Shown here one piece after another: positions 6,781 through 20,148 of a stretch of 20,317 nucleotides of DNA (position 1 is the first letter of the stretch; every line of letters begins with the position of its first letter). The position numbers and the translations under genes are program-made. Below the pieces are notes generated by a model that did no database searches, was not told the origin of the DNA, and saw only the letters and a list, made by a program, of their open reading frames with translations. This DNA comes from a virus. The stretch lies in the IMG/VR virus record IMGVR_UViG_3300038825_000183, positions 1 to 20,317 of that record, one strand, 5' to 3'.

Positions 6781-9700
6781 TTATGTTCGTAATTCTGTTG
6801 CATCAGGACTTCCGGGTTTAACTCCTCCTGATCTTTGAAAGTTTAATTCTTCCATTTGGCTACGGAAATCTCCAATGGCTTTATCAGGATCACCTATATT
6901 ATATTTACCTGTCAGTGTACCAAATGGAGTCATTGTAGGAACATCTCCCGGACCTACTTTCATAATTGTATCTCCAGCACCCTCTATCAAACCTTGTCTT
7001 CTCATAAGATCGTCTTTAGCTCTACCTTCTTCAAACAAAGTCTGCTCTTGACCAACTGCAGGTCTAGAAGATGCAAGAGCTTCTTCAGTAGATGCGTACT
7101 TAACACCTTGTTTGGCAACAGCACTTAATAACAAATTGTCAAACAATACAGCATCCTCTCCTCTAAGTGGTTTACCTGTCCTTATAGATTTAACAACAAG
7201 TCTAGCTATCTCTGGGTCGTTTATCATGGCTTGGAAAGCATTAAACTTTTGTACCCTTGCTGTTTGTAGCACGGCTTCTGTCATTAGATACTTCAAGCTA
7301 ACAACACCACGAGCAACAGAATAGACTCTACTTATGTATGATTCTACAGATAAACCTGTAGGTATGCCAGTTAAATTTATGTTACCTATCTTTGTAGGTT
7401 CTTTACCTGCAAGTAGTTCAGCAATTGTTACCATGTCATCATAAAATTTATCAGGATCAACAGGTTTGCCGCTATTATCAAGCATACCATCAGCACCTCT
7501 TGTTAGAAGAGTTTTGATTGTACCATCTTTTTGAGCTAAAGGTCCTCCTGATATACCGTCTAATAACGCTTTTGGATTTACTTTAAGTGGAACATTATCT
7601 AAAAATGTGCTTGAAGTCATATCTAAAGATAAACTAGGTTTACCCATAACTTTATCTTGAGATACAGATGTAAGTTTTTCCATAAACTGTCTAGCGACAA
7701 ACCTATCATACTGTTGTATTTTTAATTTTTTATCTTTCACAGATAAACTCTTATCTTGCATTAAACTCTTTATAAAACCTTTTCTCACGTTGTCTAGATT
7801 TGCAAGTCCTACGTCTCCCTGTTGTGCTTGAGCAAATACAAAATCAGGAGTTAAATCTTTACCATATTTTTGACCAAGCTCGATTTGTATTTTAACTTCT
7901 TGAGCTTCAATACCTTTTCCTTTTCGTATTAGTTCTGTTTTTTCTGTGATTATTTTCTTAACATTACTAACTGCTTGTCTAGCAATATCACTCTTCAAGG
8001 CTAGTTGCTCTATGCCGATTGAATCAAATATCTCTTGAATGTCATTATCATTAAACATATCTACTAATTCATTTGTTTTTGGATCACGCATCTTAGCTTG
8101 TTTCATGTGATTTATTAGGTTCATAACATCTTCTTCTTTATAATCTAATGTTATTCTACCATCTGTCATTTCACCTTGAGTTAAAAATTGTTTACTCAAT
8201 TTAGGATTTTTATGTAATTCCAACATGTTCTTACCAGCTTTAGTGTTGGTTAAGACTTGAAATTTCATTTGATCAATCCAGTTCTTTTTAAAAGTCTGTG
8301 TTCCAACTTCACCTGCAACAAACTCATATCTAGCTGGAGTGCCTGCTATTTCATCAGCAGTGCTTACAAGTTTACCACCATACACACTTGCCATTTCAGA
8401 AAACAAATTATTAAAAGAAGTTACTCCTGCAGGGGTGCTTATATCTTTTCTTGCTGCAATTTCTGATGAAAACCAATTTACAGGATCTTGATTAACACTT
8501 CCATATTTAATCATACCGTTTGAAAGTTTTGTTTTAGCGTAACTTGACCATCTCTTTCCTATGCCTGACTCATATATTGCAGAAGTATTTTGCCAAGTGC
8601 CGTTTGCATCTACTAGTCCAGCCATAACTTCAGGTCCTACGGCTGTACCTCCATCTGGCTGTAGTAATCCTATTTTAAAACCTGTATCTTTATTTTCTGC
8701 AGTCTTCATAATTAATTTTTTTATTTCCCCTACAGGCAGTGCTTGTCTTGTTGCTCCAAATCTATATTGTTGTTGAGACAAACTTGATAATACAAGTTGA
8801 TAGTCTGTAAAATTAATTGGTAGTTTTAAACCGGGTATTCCATCGAAACCCATTTCAGCATTGCCGTTTTTCAACACAGTCCATATTTGTAAATCAGTAG
8901 CATCAGGGTATATTTCTTTTATTTTATCTACAAGTGGATCTAGATTAGGATTTGATTTAAACATCCTTCCTGCTGCTTCTTGAAATACATTACCTAACTT
9001 ACCTTGAATAACAGTGGGTAGTTTAGTTCCTGCAATATCTTTTGCCGCATCACTTCCCTGCAACACTGTTTCTTCTATGCCATTTAGATACTGATCATAG
9101 ATTGGTGCAAAATCCATTTCTGCATTCTTATTGTTTGCTCGTAGTGTTGTAAATTTATCTGATGCAACTTTAAAACTACTTTTCTTGTTTCCTATAAATG
9201 ATGTTGATATATTTTTACCAATCTCTTGAGGTAAAGTATCTATAGCTATCTGTGCTTTGTTTGCACCTTCTAACACAGCTAATTTAAATTGTCCTAAAGT
9301 ATCGTTGGTTGCCTTTATGATTTGTTGTTCATTGTATCCAAGACCTTTCATTAACTCTGCTTTTGAAGTTCCCAAAGATTCAAGAACAGTATCATAATCT
9401 GTGTAAGCTCCCGGTGTGTCTGAAAGTTTTACTCCTGCTGCTTCCATTAACATAAAAGCTGTGGTATCATCTATGTCTTTATTGAAGTGTGCAATTTGAT
9501 CTGTAACTTGAGATTGTGAGTTTCTTAAATACTTTGATAACCCCTCAGTAAAATTTTTGATACTAGGATCAAGATTAGGAACAAATCTTAAATTGTTTAA
9601 CTCTCGTAGTGCTACTGCTAACTGTGTGTTTAAATCAGTCTGTTGAATTATATTTTCAGACAATCTTTGAAACTCGTGGTTCAACGTGTCCATTCCTTTT

Positions 9701-11745
9701 ACAGATAGCTTATCACCTAGTTGTCCTGCTTTTGATCGTAGTATATCCAAAGTAGATATGTTAGCTAAAGTGTTAACTATTATGTCAGGCTCTTTTATTA
9801 AAGGTTGACCATTTCTATCTTTCATACTTAGTATCTTAGTTGTTATTTCTTCTGCTCTAAGTATACCTGCTTCCATTCTAGATGCTAACTCAGGGTTAGT
9901 TCCCCCTAATAACTTTAAAAATTTATCTGCTTTTTGTTGCTCAGTTCCCTTTAACAAAGTTTTAAATATCTTTACACCAGCATCAACCAAACCTTTAGCT
10001 GTAGTAACTGAATCTACAATTCCCAAAGCTCTGTTAGATATAGGTGCAGTGGCGTAGTTACCTAAAACAACTCCACCTATTTCAAACATGGTAGCACTTG
10101 AATCAGGAAAGTAAAATTGCTGTGTGTTTTTAAGTAGAGATATACCATATGAAATACCAGCTTCTGTGGTAAGAGCTTCTCTTAAATCTTGAGGTATAAT
10201 GTTTCTTATGAATAAAGAATTTTTGTAAGAAACTTGATCTTCTAATTCTTGAGTGACATTTTGATAAGCTTTCTCCCACTTATCATCTATAGTTCTCTTA
10301 TCTTCTAAACTAATTTGTCTCTTCTTAAGTGCAACTATTCTAGCATCCACTATTTCCATATCAAGTAGAGCTGCTTTGTTTCCTTCATATATTTTTTTAT
10401 ACTCACTACTTCTTTGTATAGCGTTCATAACTCCGTTTGCTTTCCAGTTTCTATAAGCTATTGAGTTTATTTTAGTAGTATCATTAACATGTTCCCTTAT
10501 CAAAACGGCAGGAGTTTTTTTATTTTTATTTATTGCAGAAGCGTATGCTTCTTCAAATGTTGATTCTGCATCACCATATTTCTTTTTAATAAAATTTCTG
10601 AAAGCTCTATCTTTTAAAAAATAGCGACCAACTTTAACTGCTTGGAAAGGTGCTGATACAACACCACCAGCAAGAAATTCTTCTATAGCAGTCTCAGTTA
10701 TACTAGGACTCCACCTGAATATAAGGTCAGCCGTATCTTGTGATACTCCTGTCTTTTGAGAAAATTCTTCGGCCGCATAAGTTATGTGTCCAAGATCAAC
10801 CCCACCATCTCTCTGTTTAGGATTATCTTTTGGATCTTTAAACTCGTCATCAAAGCTAAAAAAGTTTGCAGTGGCAATAGCTACGTCAGCAACAGCTTCC
10901 ATACCCCACAGAGCTAAATTACCTACTCCTGCTACGGTGTCTCTACCTAATTGACCTACTCCTGCAACTTTAGAAAGTTCTCCACTTGCTTGAGCTTTGA
11001 GTATGTTTAACTTTTGATACTGATTTAAGGATGTATACTTGTCTAACATTGCCTTGAAAGATACAACTCTTTCATTAAAGTCAAGTACAACTGCACCCTT
11101 CCCTGACTTATCTGATAAAGGAAATATGGTTTTTTGACCCATAGTTACAGTTTCTTTTGTGTCATCATCTTTGATTAATACTTTTTTCTGATCTACATCA
11201 ACACCTATGTTTGGAAGACGAACTTGTTTGCTTTCATCTACAGTGCCAAATTGTCCAAGAAGTTTCACAATAGGTAGCACACCTACTCTACCGTCAGGTA
11301 GCACAACTTTAGTGCCTTGATTTGCTACCAACGCCTGCAACTTATCTTCGTAAGTCATCTCTGAGCCGAACTGTCTAATAGGAGAATCATCCAAACTTTC
11401 TATGGTTACCTTGCCATCATCACCTTTAAGAAACCCTAAACTTTCTGTTCCTTTTACATTTTGCTGTATTGCGTTAGCTAGTTCTTCTTTCGATAGTATT
11501 TGTCTGTTTGGTCCTTGAGCTTCTTTGTACATGTCATAGTAGGATACAGAACTTTTATAACCTGTAGCACTTTCCATTCCCTCTCTAAAGGCGTTAGGAT
11601 TATTTACCTGCCCACTAAAGTAACGTGCATCTAGCTCACCAGCAGGCAGATCTGTGATAGATATAGAACTATAGTCAAAGGGTTTGTCCTTATCCTCTAG
11701 TCTTTTATATACGTCACCAAACTGTTGTTGTACATTTTCAGCCAT
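6781..11745 (-). CDS. Giant internal virion-type protein (1654 residues)
   Basis: This is the largest gene of the window, encoding a soluble, mostly helical protein. I recognise no named domain. A beta-type region near residues 140-225 includes VVLPDGRVGVLPIV. A Gly/Ala-rich hydrophobic stretch at about 258-296 (contains VAGVGQLGRDTVAGVGNLAL) and another at about 345-370 could insert in a membrane. A charged coiled-coil-like region sits near 460-520. The rest alternates helices and short loops. The size, low cysteine content and possible membrane-active helices resemble ejected core proteins such as T7 gp16, which form the channel for DNA entry. I could not find a lytic transglycosylase or RNA polymerase motif. 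It starts three bases after the stop of the 661-residue gene, with AGGGGA about 12 bases upstream, so the two are coupled. Role inferred from size, composition and position. Confidence 0.72.
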   Translation of the reverse strand: MAENVQQQFGDVYKRLEDKDKPFDYSSISITDLPAGELDARYFSGQVNNPNAFREGMESATGYKSSVSYYDMYKEAQGPNRQILSKEELANAIQQNVKGTESLGFLKGDDGKVTIESLDDSPIRQFGSEMTYEDKLQALVANQGTKVVLPDGRVGVLPIVKLLGQFGTVDESKQVRLPNIGVDVDQKKVLIKDDDTKETVTMGQKTIFPLSDKSGKGAVVLDFNERVVSFKAMLDKYTSLNQYQKLNILKAQASGELSKVAGVGQLGRDTVAGVGNLALWGMEAVADVAIATANFFSFDDEFKDPKDNPKQRDGGVDLGHITYAAEEFSQKTGVSQDTADLIFRWSPSITETAIEEFLAGGVVSAPFQAVKVGRYFLKDRAFRNFIKKKYGDAESTFEEAYASAINKNKKTPAVLIREHVNDTTKINSIAYRNWKANGVMNAIQRSSEYKKIYEGNKAALLDMEIVDARIVALKKRQISLEDKRTIDDKWEKAYQNVTQELEDQVSYKNSLFIRNIIPQDLREALTTEAGISYGISLLKNTQQFYFPDSSATMFEIGGVVLGNYATAPISNRALGIVDSVTTAKGLVDAGVKIFKTLLKGTEQQKADKFLKLLGGTNPELASRMEAGILRAEEITTKILSMKDRNGQPLIKEPDIIVNTLANISTLDILRSKAGQLGDKLSVKGMDTLNHEFQRLSENIIQQTDLNTQLAVALRELNNLRFVPNLDPSIKNFTEGLSKYLRNSQSQVTDQIAHFNKDIDDTTAFMLMEAAGVKLSDTPGAYTDYDTVLESLGTSKAELMKGLGYNEQQIIKATNDTLGQFKLAVLEGANKAQIAIDTLPQEIGKNISTSFIGNKKSSFKVASDKFTTLRANNKNAEMDFAPIYDQYLNGIEETVLQGSDAAKDIAGTKLPTVIQGKLGNVFQEAAGRMFKSNPNLDPLVDKIKEIYPDATDLQIWTVLKNGNAEMGFDGIPGLKLPINFTDYQLVLSSLSQQQYRFGATRQALPVGEIKKLIMKTAENKDTGFKIGLLQPDGGTAVGPEVMAGLVDANGTWQNTSAIYESGIGKRWSSYAKTKLSNGMIKYGSVNQDPVNWFSSEIAARKDISTPAGVTSFNNLFSEMASVYGGKLVSTADEIAGTPARYEFVAGEVGTQTFKKNWIDQMKFQVLTNTKAGKNMLELHKNPKLSKQFLTQGEMTDGRITLDYKEEDVMNLINHMKQAKMRDPKTNELVDMFNDNDIQEIFDSIGIEQLALKSDIARQAVSNVKKIITEKTELIRKGKGIEAQEVKIQIELGQKYGKDLTPDFVFAQAQQGDVGLANLDNVRKGFIKSLMQDKSLSVKDKKLKIQQYDRFVARQFMEKLTSVSQDKVMGKPSLSLDMTSSTFLDNVPLKVNPKALLDGISGGPLAQKDGTIKTLLTRGADGMLDNSGKPVDPDKFYDDMVTIAELLAGKEPTKIGNINLTGIPTGLSVESYISRVYSVARGVVSLKYLMTEAVLQTARVQKFNAFQAMINDPEIARLVVKSIRTGKPLRGEDAVLFDNLLLSAVAKQGVKYASTEEALASSRPAVGQEQTLFEEGRAKDDLMRRQGLIEGAGDTIMKVGPGDVPTMTPFGTLTGKYNIGDPDKAIGDFRSQMEELNFQRSGGVKPGSPDATELRT

Positions 11746-16646: not shown

Positions 16647-17798
16647 CTATAGTTCTGCATCAAATTCTAATTTTTTTGTATCAGCAAAATATAAAGCATG
16701 AGCATACGCACCACTTGGGTCAAAATCTAAGCCTACTGTAAATGTTGCAACACCATCATGAGCTTGTTTTAATGTAAAATTACCAGCAGTAACATCATCT
16801 GTATTATTATTTCCTGAAACAACCCCAGCATTACCAGTAGGAGATGTACCATCATTATCTAATATAGTAGCAGTTGGTTCGGCTCTCATGTCTTGTTTTA
16901 AAGTCCAACTAAAAAATCCAGTATTGGTACTCCATCTCATCATAGCAAAAGTATAAAGAGCATTTGAATCAGATGTTGCATTATGTACTTGAAAATACCT
17001 CTGACACAAAGCTAGTTCTTCCCCAAATGACCTATGCTCAAAAGGTGTGGCTTGTGAGCCTACTTCAAATTGCAAACCAGTAATAAAAAATGTTCTACTT
17101 GTGCTGTCAAAAAAAGATGTTTGATTATCATTAAGTGTATTAGTGTAATCTCTTTCTGCCCATGCTCCATCAACAAATGTTCCACTTGAGTAGTTTGTTC
17201 CTCCATGCAACCAAAACATAAATGCCCAAACACCACTATTGCTATCATCTATTGCATAGTTTGAATTAGTGTCAGTATCACCGACTATGGTAATTTCATG
17301 TTTTACCCAAGAGGTAGTCACTGCAATTTCTTTAGAAAACCAACGAGCAGTACCACCACTTTTATGATACTGTGCTATAAAAGTATAACTTGCAGTTGCG
17401 TTTCCCTTTACATAAAAACTTACAGTTGTTGTTTTTGCATTAGCTGTATTGTAATTTAATTGTTGTAAATCTTGACCTTCAAGAGCATAGTTCAAATGAA
17501 AGTATTCATTTGATGCAATAGATGTATCAGCAGTAGTACAAGCACATTTTAAACTTTTACTAAATCCATCAGGTGCATCACTTTCTTGACTCATTGTCCA
17601 CCTACCAGCAGAGTTTCCTTGAAAGTAACCCATTCTATCAAGAGAACCATAACCTGAAGTTGATGCACCTAAACCAGTAACTGACGTACCTCTCTGAGCT
17701 ACTTCCATCGCACCATTTATGACAATGTTCCTTCGCCCACCAATCTGACTATTGGTTAGGACTTCACCCATCTTTGCTAATTCTGCTGCTTTGGTCAT
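16647..17798 (-). CDS. Receptor-binding tail protein with carbohydrate-binding-like domain
   Basis: This 383-residue protein probably binds the host surface. A short N-terminal helix, possibly the attachment part, is followed by NIVINGAMEVAQRGTS (24-39), a Tyr/Gly-rich stretch and a DRMGYF turn. A beta-rich jelly-roll-like region comes next, with GFSKSLKC, VSFYVKG and WVKHEITI. Then comes the highly typical ITGLQFEVGSQATPFEHRSF with EELALCQRYFQ (about 240-275). This combination is a recurrent signature of phage and prophage tail proteins thought to bind glycans. The C-terminal 110 residues form a separate beta domain. Its ATG overlaps the stop of the preceding fibre gene (ATGA), and its ribosome-binding site (GGAG at 17810-17807) lies inside that gene's final codons. 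The stop overlaps the AGGAGA of the next gene. Exact ligand unknown. Confidence 0.85.
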   Translation of the reverse strand: MTKAAELAKMGEVLTNSQIGGRRNIVINGAMEVAQRGTSVTGLGASTSGYGSLDRMGYFQGNSAGRWTMSQESDAPDGFSKSLKCACTTADTSIASNEYFHLNYALEGQDLQQLNYNTANAKTTTVSFYVKGNATASYTFIAQYHKSGGTARWFSKEIAVTTSWVKHEITIVGDTDTNSNYAIDDSNSGVWAFMFWLHGGTNYSSGTFVDGAWAERDYTNTLNDNQTSFFDSTSRTFFITGLQFEVGSQATPFEHRSFGEELALCQRYFQVHNATSDSNALYTFAMMRWSTNTGFFSWTLKQDMRAEPTATILDNDGTSPTGNAGVVSGNNNTDDVTAGNFTLKQAHDGVATFTVGLDFDPSGAYAHALYFADTKKLEFDAEL

Positions 17799-19186
17799 TC
17801 TGCATTCTCCAACGCTGTCACTTTTGCTTCAAGTGTTTCTATTCTTGTCATAGCTTCTTGCAGTGCTTTAACTGCTTTCATGTAGAGTATAGAATAAGCA
17901 ACCCCTTTTACTCGGTCTGTTACCTCTTTGACATCACCAACTTGTTTTCCTTCTGGTATGTCATCACCTTCTACATACAAAGAACCAAACTCTGAAGAAC
18001 TAATAATATCTCCTGCATCTGGTTCTACACTTCTCACAAGACTAGGACTTATTGCTTCAAGTTCTTGACCTATCAAACCAAGTTGTACTTTAGCTTCACT
18101 TTCTCCATATTCTCTTATATCATCTTTTCTTTGATAGTTAACAAATCTCATTGCTTTAATATCTTCCCATTGAGAATTAGCATCTGTTATATTATCTTTA
18201 ATTCTTCTGTCTGATATTTGTGCATAAGTTCCGTCATGATTATAGAGGTCACCATCACTATATATATTAAGTCTAACAGTTCCTCCACCATCTTGAAATT
18301 TCATAAATGCTGAAGTATTATCATCTGGTGATGACCCACTAAACCTCAACAACGTACCAAATATATTGCCAGAACTCGCATAGTTTTCTATGTAATTTAC
18401 CCAGTTGTTATTTGATTGACTTGTCTGAAAAATAGCACCACCTGCATTAGCAATAGCAGCACCAGTGCCTAATAATACTCTTCCTGCAGAATCAACACGT
18501 ACTCTTTCGCTTGTTCCATTTGTATTTATTATAAAAGCACCACCTGATTGTGCTTCTACTGTCAAAGATTCACCACTAGCACCTTGTAGTTTATTATTAA
18601 TAACCACACCACTATTAAATGTTGCCTTACCTGCATCTGACATATCAAGTGTAAGGGCAACTACAGTTTGCCCATTATCACTACCTAAAAATTTAATATC
18701 TGCATCACTAATTTGACTAGATAAAGCTAAATTATCTGAGTTGAGTTGTATATTTCCGTGTGACGTACCACCATTTTTAAAAGATATAAGTCCATCATCA
18801 GAATCAAGAATAATATCTCCTGCTACGTCTACAGTTAAATCGCCACTATCAGTAATATCACCTGCAAAACTAACTGCACCATCAAACGTACCACCATCTG
18901 CTTTACTTACAGTGTCTGCTACCGAGAACACATCAAATACCACGACCACCACGAGGTCATCTACGGATGCTCCTTGTGCTAGTACGATTGATGTGCCACT
19001 TGTTGATGTATAGTCTGCGTCACCTAACTTGATACCATTTTGATACACATCTACGAAGTTACTGTCTTTGTAACTTAAAGATGTACCCTCTGCACCTGCA
19101 CCAGTAAATGTGGTCTGCGATGCTGTTGCAGTGTAGGTGTGAACCCTACGTACTCCGTTAGATGGACTAACTCCTATGTATGCCAT
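17795..19186 (-). CDS. Tail fibre protein with C-terminal peptidase S74 chaperone domain
   Basis: This 463-residue fibre begins MAYIGVSPSNGVRRVHTYTA, an N-terminal domain I recall as frequent in marine podovirus-type fibres, which probably fixes it to the tail. The middle part is a repetitive beta region (ITDSGDLTVDVAGDIILDSD and similar), as in trimeric fibres. The C-terminus is an intramolecular chaperone of the S74 family: S325-D-R-R-I-K330 carries the Ser and Lys of the self-cleaving dyad. LGLIGQELEAISPSLV, GVAYSILYMKAVKALQE and a terminal coiled coil ending ALENAE follow. In this family the chaperone helps trimer folding and then cuts itself off before the Ser, which would release 139 residues. 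The start overlaps the upstream stop (TAATG); GGAG lies eight bases ahead. Confidence 0.92.
   Translation of the reverse strand: MAYIGVSPSNGVRRVHTYTATASQTTFTGAGAEGTSLSYKDSNFVDVYQNGIKLGDADYTSTSGTSIVLAQGASVDDLVVVVVFDVFSVADTVSKADGGTFDGAVSFAGDITDSGDLTVDVAGDIILDSDDGLISFKNGGTSHGNIQLNSDNLALSSQISDADIKFLGSDNGQTVVALTLDMSDAGKATFNSGVVINNKLQGASGESLTVEAQSGGAFIINTNGTSERVRVDSAGRVLLGTGAAIANAGGAIFQTSQSNNNWVNYIENYASSGNIFGTLLRFSGSSPDDNTSAFMKFQDGGGTVRLNIYSDGDLYNHDGTYAQISDRRIKDNITDANSQWEDIKAMRFVNYQRKDDIREYGESEAKVQLGLIGQELEAISPSLVRSVEPDAGDIISSSEFGSLYVEGDDIPEGKQVGDVKEVTDRVKGVAYSILYMKAVKALQEAMTRIETLEAKVTALENAE
17801..17818 (-). repeat. Fibre-end repeat, copy 1: C-terminal codons plus ribosome-binding site
   Basis: These 18 bases differ at one place from 19189-19206. 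They encode the ALENA end of the S74 fibre and contain GGAG (17810-17807) eight bases before the ATG of the next gene at 17798. The repeat therefore serves as coding sequence and as translation signal. Confidence 0.75.
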
Positions 19187-20148
19187 TATGCATTCTCCAA
19201 TGCTGTAATACGAGCTTCTATATCTTCAGGTATAAACTGTCTGTACCCATACTCAACTGCAACTAAAACTGCTGTGCTATCTGTAAATGTTATAGCTTCT
19301 CTTGCTATACCAATTGTTGCACAAATAGATGTAGCTTTCATACCCTCGCCAGTTGTTGATGATGTACAAATATAATCACCTACTGCAATGTTTCCATTTT
19401 CATTATTGCAAAGAATGTGTCCATCACCTAATACAAGTGCTTGATGTAAGTTAGTGCTACCTCGTTCTTCACTATTCATTGAACTACCATAAGCACCTAA
19501 TACTGCTTTTGATTTTGCACTAGATGATTTTTGCACGTTATACAAAATACCTCTTTCAGTATCAGCACCATTTTTTTGTGTATAACTTAAACTTGTTATT
19601 TCTAATAATGTGCCATAAGGATAAGCATTAGCTACACTATCTGCATCATTATCTGTATTTGGAATTATACAAGGGTGAAAGGCTGTAAAAGCACCATAGT
19701 TAACAGTTCCATTATTAGATGATATTGAGCCTTGTAGAGTTCCATCACCATCTGCAAAATCTATTTGATAATGTGTTCCTGCAGGGTCATTTGCACCTGC
19801 TGAAATATGCAAACCATAACCATCATTATTATTTCTGTTATTATCAATTCTTAATGTATAATCACTTCCTCCACCTCCTGCTAATATAGAACTACCATCA
19901 TTCCCAATAGTTAGACGTTCTGTATTATTTGTAGATAAAACCATATCAGCATTTGAGGTATTATTTATAAGAAGTTTGCCACTTGAGGGAACACCGATTG
20001 TAGATGTTCCAGAGCCAGTTCTTTCTAATTTTATTTCTATATCAGACGATTTTTCTATATGAATATCACTATCTATGGTGGTAGCACCTAAACCTACGTC
20101 ACTAGTTATTGTACCTAGACCTGCTCCTATTACTTTTGTTAATGCCAT
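19186..20148 (-). CDS. Tail fibre or spike protein with G2-like C-terminal domain
   Basis: This 320-residue protein starts MALTKVIGAGLGTITSDVGL, a common start of phage fibre proteins. It is followed by beta-repeat-type sequence (TSNADMVLSTNNTERLTIGN) and a Gly/Asn-rich part. The last 150 residues form a compact domain containing PYGTLLEI, GDGHILCNNENGNIAVGDYI, GEGMKAT, IGIAREAI and VLVAVEYGYRQF. This order recalls the G2-type self-cleaving domains at the ends of some phage spikes, but I cannot identify the catalytic residues, so the match is tentative. A short coiled coil ending ITALENA closes the chain, almost the same end as the S74 fibre. AGGAG, touching the stop of the gene before, lies seven bases before the ATG. 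The stop overlaps the next start (TAATG). Confidence 0.8.
   Translation of the reverse strand: MALTKVIGAGLGTITSDVGLGATTIDSDIHIEKSSDIEIKLERTGSGTSTIGVPSSGKLLINNTSNADMVLSTNNTERLTIGNDGSSILAGGGGSDYTLRIDNNRNNNDGYGLHISAGANDPAGTHYQIDFADGDGTLQGSISSNNGTVNYGAFTAFHPCIIPNTDNDADSVANAYPYGTLLEITSLSYTQKNGADTERGILYNVQKSSSAKSKAVLGAYGSSMNSEERGSTNLHQALVLGDGHILCNNENGNIAVGDYICTSSTTGEGMKATSICATIGIAREAITFTDSTAVLVAVEYGYRQFIPEDIEARITALENA
19189..19206 (-). repeat. Fibre-end repeat, copy 2: C-terminal codons plus ribosome-binding site
   Basis: This copy (17 of 18 bases identical to 17801-17818) encodes the LENA end of the 320-residue fibre. It carries GGAG (19198-19195) eight bases before the start of the S74 fibre gene at 19186, the same geometry as the other copy. 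Confidence 0.75.

Follow-up and report, generated by a model that had tools for sequence, protein, structure and literature searches.

Why should two neighbouring phage fibre genes with different C-terminal regions end in almost the same 18 bases, with a new gene beginning at the end of each copy? The window analysed here, a stretch of 20,317 nucleotides within a 21,230-base IMG/VR virus record, encodes fibres A, B and C as consecutive genes on its minus strand (Table 1), and a preliminary description had proposed that the repeat at their borders is a homology joint through which fibre cassettes are swapped. Our analysis indicates that the repeat is probably a seam that couples translation at the borders of exchangeable fibre cassettes, and possibly a recombination joint in addition. 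The window phage is probably an HMO-2011-like marine phage, because its class II ribonucleotide reductase has 68% identity to the counterpart in Puniceispirillum phage HMO-2011 and it encodes a T7-like endonuclease I; a DNA search for near relatives among isolates returned short partial matches only. The place of the internal virion protein is occupied by a 1654-aa protein (6781-11745), for which neither PHROG nor a tblastn search of 50,697 phage records gave a match.

Table 1. Fibre genes, adaptor block and seams of the window, with further loci that hold the fibre A C-terminal module
Feature	Position	Strand	Description
Fibre A	19186-20148	-	320 aa; MALTKV start; C-terminal module without a Pfam match; short terminal helix IEARITALENA
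Fibre B	17795-19186	-	463 aa; MAYIGVSP adaptor; C-terminal Peptidase_S74 (intramolecular chaperone); coiled-coil end
Fibre B adaptor block	18879-19186	-	103 codons, alike in many contigs
Fibre C	16647-17798	-	383 aa; MTKAAELAKMGEV start; first 16 codons DNA-conserved across relatives
Seam 1	19184-19206	-	ACAGCATTGGAGAATGCATAATG; fibre A end ALENA-stop, GGAG, 8-base spacer, fibre B start (TAATG overlap)
Seam 2	17796-17818	-	ACAGCGTTGGAGAATGCAGAATG; fibre B end ALENAE-stop, GGAG, 8-base spacer, fibre C start (ATGA overlap)
Fibre A C-terminal module in other loci			L002, L003, L007, L009, L010

The two copies, 17801-17818 (TGCATTCTCCAACGCTGT) and 19189-19206 (TGCATTCTCCAATGCTGT), differ at one base, as first reported, and the repeat lengthens to 23 bases at 91% (seams 2 and 1). 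On the coding strand both read GC(A/G) TTG GAG AAT GCA, with GGAG separated by exactly 8 bases from the ATG that follows, again in agreement with the preliminary description, and a pattern search of the window allowing up to 3 mismatches recovered these two sites only, against 0.02 expected from shuffles. An ALENA C-terminus had been assigned to both fibres; fibre A does end ALENA-TAA, with one base in common with the next ATG, but fibre B actually ends ALENAE-TGA, with a 4-base overlap with the next gene. Both seams have the layout of coupled genes, in which start and stop codons overlap and the Shine-Dalgarno sequence lies inside the upstream gene, 5-10 bases ahead of the start. The reported difference between the C-terminal regions is borne out: Peptidase_S74 is present in fibre B only (residues 325-384, E 1.9e-10), and fibre A gave zero Pfam matches even with the threshold relaxed to E 1. 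Its C-terminal module (GDGHILCNNENGN..GDYICTSS..GEGMKA) had no match in Pfam or in the phage collection, and the AlphaFold2 prediction for fibre A has a mean pLDDT of 44.

An invertible fibre cassette of the Mu/Gin type does not fit, as it requires inverted repeats and the window copies are directly repeated on one strand, and local duplication within the genome was rejected because the resemblance between the window copies does not exceed that among copies in other phages. Both window copies carry the minority codon AAT, which places an out-of-frame ATG immediately behind GGAG and lets a 5-base hairpin form around GGAG; AAC, used by most TAATG-type relatives, gives neither. A conserved hairpin was likewise discarded: the AAT version can pair GCATT-GGAG-AATGC, but this pairing is lost in the majority AAC version, and shuffled sequences fold at least as well.

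The seam, with consensus GCA-YTG-GAG-AAC-GCA-TAATG (or ...GCA-GA-ATGA), closes fibre genes in many marine phage contigs and isolates; isolates HTVC106P, HTVC100P and MEP401 have it at fibre gene borders with different next genes. Junctions were searched for with patterns that left synonymous sites open, so that codon bias was not created by the search. Among 91 ALENA-TAATG junctions, collected with frames open on both flanks, Leu is YTG and Glu is GAG in 90 each, AAC is used in 83, and GCA in 87 and 86 at the two Ala codons. Many unrelated genes follow (MAYIG, MPYIG, MALTK, MAKDK, MSKDK, MTRARD, MADIV and others), such that the same short sequence borders different modules in different phages. 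All 18 unique TALENAE/MTKA junctions use ACA, GCA (17/18), TTG, GAG, AAY, GCA and GAA, and the cap class QELEAR stands before 16 classes of next gene. Viral contigs contain the exact 20-mer GCAYTGGAGAAYGCATAATG in at least 120 stretches, and prokaryote genomes (257 Gb) contain it only 3 times, where by our own estimate a few occurrences are expected by chance. In L313 and L361 the ALENA seam stands on apparently non-coiled-coil ends (..AEQQALENA, ..AEQALENA) before fibre-like genes.

Codon identity, the probability that a shared residue is encoded by a shared codon, was calculated over 114 dereplicated ends. It is near the usage level at most positions up to -3 (.35 versus.37 expected at -3), modestly raised at codons -9, -8 and -4, and.92 versus.37 expected at the Ala before Leu-Glu (GCA -1), which belongs to a nearly fixed terminal stretch of the fibre ends (GCA in 123/127; terminal YTG in 101/114 and GAG in 103/114 of the dereplicated ends). 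The terminal dipeptide is encoded by AACGCA in 89/96 cases, versus 64/455 (14%) where that dipeptide occurs internally in these genes. YTGGAG encodes Leu-Glu in 118/136 ends with an overlapping start versus 1/105 internal pairs in the same proteins, a count that leaves out loci fetched with a fixed TTGGAG pattern; a second count was similar. On these counts the seam is conserved at the DNA level beyond the protein, with a codon choice tied to the overlapping start; freely differing synonymous sites had been named as grounds for abandoning the homology joint, and the sites inside the joint do not vary freely. AAC would avoid the out-of-frame ATG of AAT-GCA, which is at most part of the answer for its fixation because AAT is used in 7/18 TGA-type junctions, window seam 2 among them.

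Because YTGGAG is so common at the ends and so rare internally, these codons evidently carry the Shine-Dalgarno signal of the next gene. Leu-Glu is TTAGAA or CTAGAA in the four ends that have a farther next gene with its own spaced signal (L336, L101, L003, L273), and it reverts to the same codons in LEGA ends, where the signal GAAGGAG sits one codon later; synonymous codons are selected for the signal, as in coupled genes. From its position and this codon choice we infer that GGAG drives translation of the next gene. In 123 MTKAAEL starts, gathered blind to upstream sequence, the signal lies wholly within the previous gene in 92, of which about 50 follow GDLA or a similar ending (GGAGAYYTAGC-ATGA) and 26 a coiled-coil ending as here, and such peptide ends may therefore in part be the ribosome-binding site of the next gene read in frame.

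Fibre A and its counterpart in L005 are 83% alike up to seam 1, with unrelated genes beyond, while homology with L107 runs through seam 1 into the fibre B adaptor and L096 has the same seam 2 behind a different upstream fibre. L020 and L031 have an upstream block 88.6% alike followed by 1.35 kb of unrelated fibre body, and identity resumes at 91.6% 19 bases before the next ATG; L119 and L129 are 97.7% alike, then unrelated for 1.1 and 1.6 kb, and alike again at 97% from 24 bases before the ATG. In these alignments cassette exchange at the seam is visible in both directions, with homology stopping or starting there, and recombinants switch at the seam in window/L005, L020/L031 and L119/L129; window/L096 gives a further breakpoint. 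The preliminary description would have given up its proposal if relatives with swapped fibres lacked the joint; they have it, and homology starts or stops there. It had also suggested a search for other cassette numbers, and loci with fewer or more cassettes do occur (about 2 to 5). At least five different N-terminal starts (MALT, MTRAS, MAYIG, MPYIG, MTRARD) are found fused to the fibre A C-terminal module, which in L014 stands directly before MTKAAEL. The adaptor block has 79-97% identity in many contigs (91-97% in most) and sharp edges, with the seam on one side and the GGTFDG motif (fibre B residue 103) on the other; as many contigs are alike over this block and share nothing beyond, the adaptor appears to be exchanged as a block inside the gene.

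In the mechanism that we propose, the last codons of the upstream fibre would end a short coiled coil (..ALENA) and at the same time supply a Shine-Dalgarno sequence and spacer that serve the overlapping start codon that follows. Whatever its kind, a fibre body with the seam at its 3' end could then be joined to any next gene with translation retained, so that swapped fibre bodies would be recovered with a breakpoint at the seam. The exchange itself may take place by homologous recombination through the seam together with the 5' end of the gene that follows it.

The rival that survives best holds that the seam of some 20 bases, either by itself or together with the 5' end of the gene behind it, is kept as a recombination substrate for phages, its DNA identity being held because exchanges pass through it. 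We consider this unlikely, although coupling alone does not account for the conservation of AAC and of the GCA ahead of Leu-Glu, neither of which GGAG needs, and the fixation of GCA (-1) and AACGCA beyond the needs of GGAG speaks for a joint, as do breakpoints exactly at the seam in both directions. So does the conservation of MTKAAEL codons 2-16, of which.88-.96 are kept given the residue in two large classes of pairs, versus.53-.64 in the gene body and.45-.71 at core gene starts; MALTKV starts keep.84 over codons 2-8. MAYIG starts argue the other way, with little extra DNA conservation (.66 then.56). Because MTKAAEL codons 2-16 are kept and the body is near random, the longer DNA-level anchor, as judged by codon retention, is the 5' end of some next genes and not the 18 bases alone. 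Around the MTKA junction, nucleotide identity is.32-.38 farther out than about -75 and about +130, climbs through the seam and is highest, at.97, over the next gene's first 36 bases; the expected fall on both sides is there, but the peak predicted for the joint lies just inside the next gene.

Homology ends within 20 bases of seams number 212, versus 47 for random positions. Other gene starts of the same loci nevertheless break about as often, which counts against a joint: the frequency is.385 at seams versus.431 at those starts by pair, and.44 versus.31 by boundary, such that breaks are not clearly more frequent at seams. In L020/L031 the SK/NA differences that immediately precede the stop go with the upstream gene, and crossovers of this type therefore need not lie in the seam. 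Upstream and downstream proteins correlate across the seam with r -0.21, against r.89 for two parts of one gene; we do not take this decoupling as proof of seam recombination, because a pair of core genes is likewise uncorrelated (r -0.04) and free reassortment is therefore not special to the seam. What stands of the original homology-joint claim is thus the breaks at the seam and the restricted synonymous sites; TTG-GAG is explained by the Shine-Dalgarno signal, the breaks are matched at other gene starts, and the longer anchor of MTKAAEL genes is their first ~16 codons, downstream of the repeat. A wider version, in which one marine-phage seam, GCAYTGGAGAACGCATAATG, kept across unrelated phages, would be a universal plug, joint and translation signal together, through which pooled fibre cassettes swap across the phages of different hosts, seems to us equally doubtful.

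Most loci are metagenome contigs, and the seam and adaptor give some 40-65 identical bases, so the swaps might be assembly chimeras joined at short identical sequences; this is very improbable given that the three isolates named above also show the seam before different next genes, and the 8-17% divergence in several common blocks favours old natural exchange over one-sample chimeras. Protein constraint on the coiled-coil end (ALENA) alone has practically no chance of being the explanation, common as the peptide end [AT]LE[NS]A is in these coils, because the YTGGAG, codon-identity and AACGCA counts rule it out: codons are nearly fixed only at the last few positions and only before an overlapping start, and identical residues inside the same proteins take other codons.

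Translational coupling is characterised by an overlapping stop and start and a Shine-Dalgarno sequence inside the upstream gene. The coupling seam described here has both features and differs from ordinary coupling in that the same nucleotide stretch is reused before many unrelated next genes. Tetart and colleagues are said to have described in 1998 an exchange of T4-type distal tail fibres at conserved motifs; there too, short conserved motifs allow the receptor-binding part to be swapped, but they are internal glycine-rich protein motifs, whereas the seam spans a gene boundary. Short conserved boundary sequences between phage modules are an old idea (Susskind and Botstein 1978, cited in PMC3029335), and are also known from HK620 (Clark et al. 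2001, cited in PMC3029335). As that paper relays them, boundary sequences are, like the seam, short sequences common to the borders of exchangeable genes at which recombinants switch; compared with what is relayed there, the seam has a sequence defined in detail, turns up in many fibre genes that are unrelated to one another and evidently doubles as Shine-Dalgarno sequence and stop/start overlap. In mycobacteriophage Island3 the DNA of the last 18 residues (~60 bases) is common to the neighbouring genes 67 and 68, and was read as a recombination site that gained or lost a gene (PMC3029335). Island3 differs from the seam in being one event in one cluster with a longer repeat, and no ribosome-binding link is reported there (PMC3029335). 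A search of mainly open-access literature found no description of this seam, which brings to the known boundary sequences a defined sequence, many copies and a likely translational role.

Whether phage mosaicism arises at common boundary sequences or from random joining with subsequent selection is an old question that has lacked a case with many independent copies, and the seam offers well over a hundred comparable junctions. The predictions are separable: GGAG and its spacing should set translation, and the length of identity should set recombination. A search with the 20-mer is also a practical marker of fibre cassette borders in viral contigs.

The same signal logic is seen in L130-L235, where about 50 MTKAAEL genes follow genes of ~140 aa with a GDLA or similar ending; immediately ahead of GDLA the residues vary in almost every contig, as if this were a hypervariable end. 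In L357 (HMO-2011), some 13 small fibre-like genes form an array; many of their starts overlap, and several of the genes end in GDLA with the signal inside.
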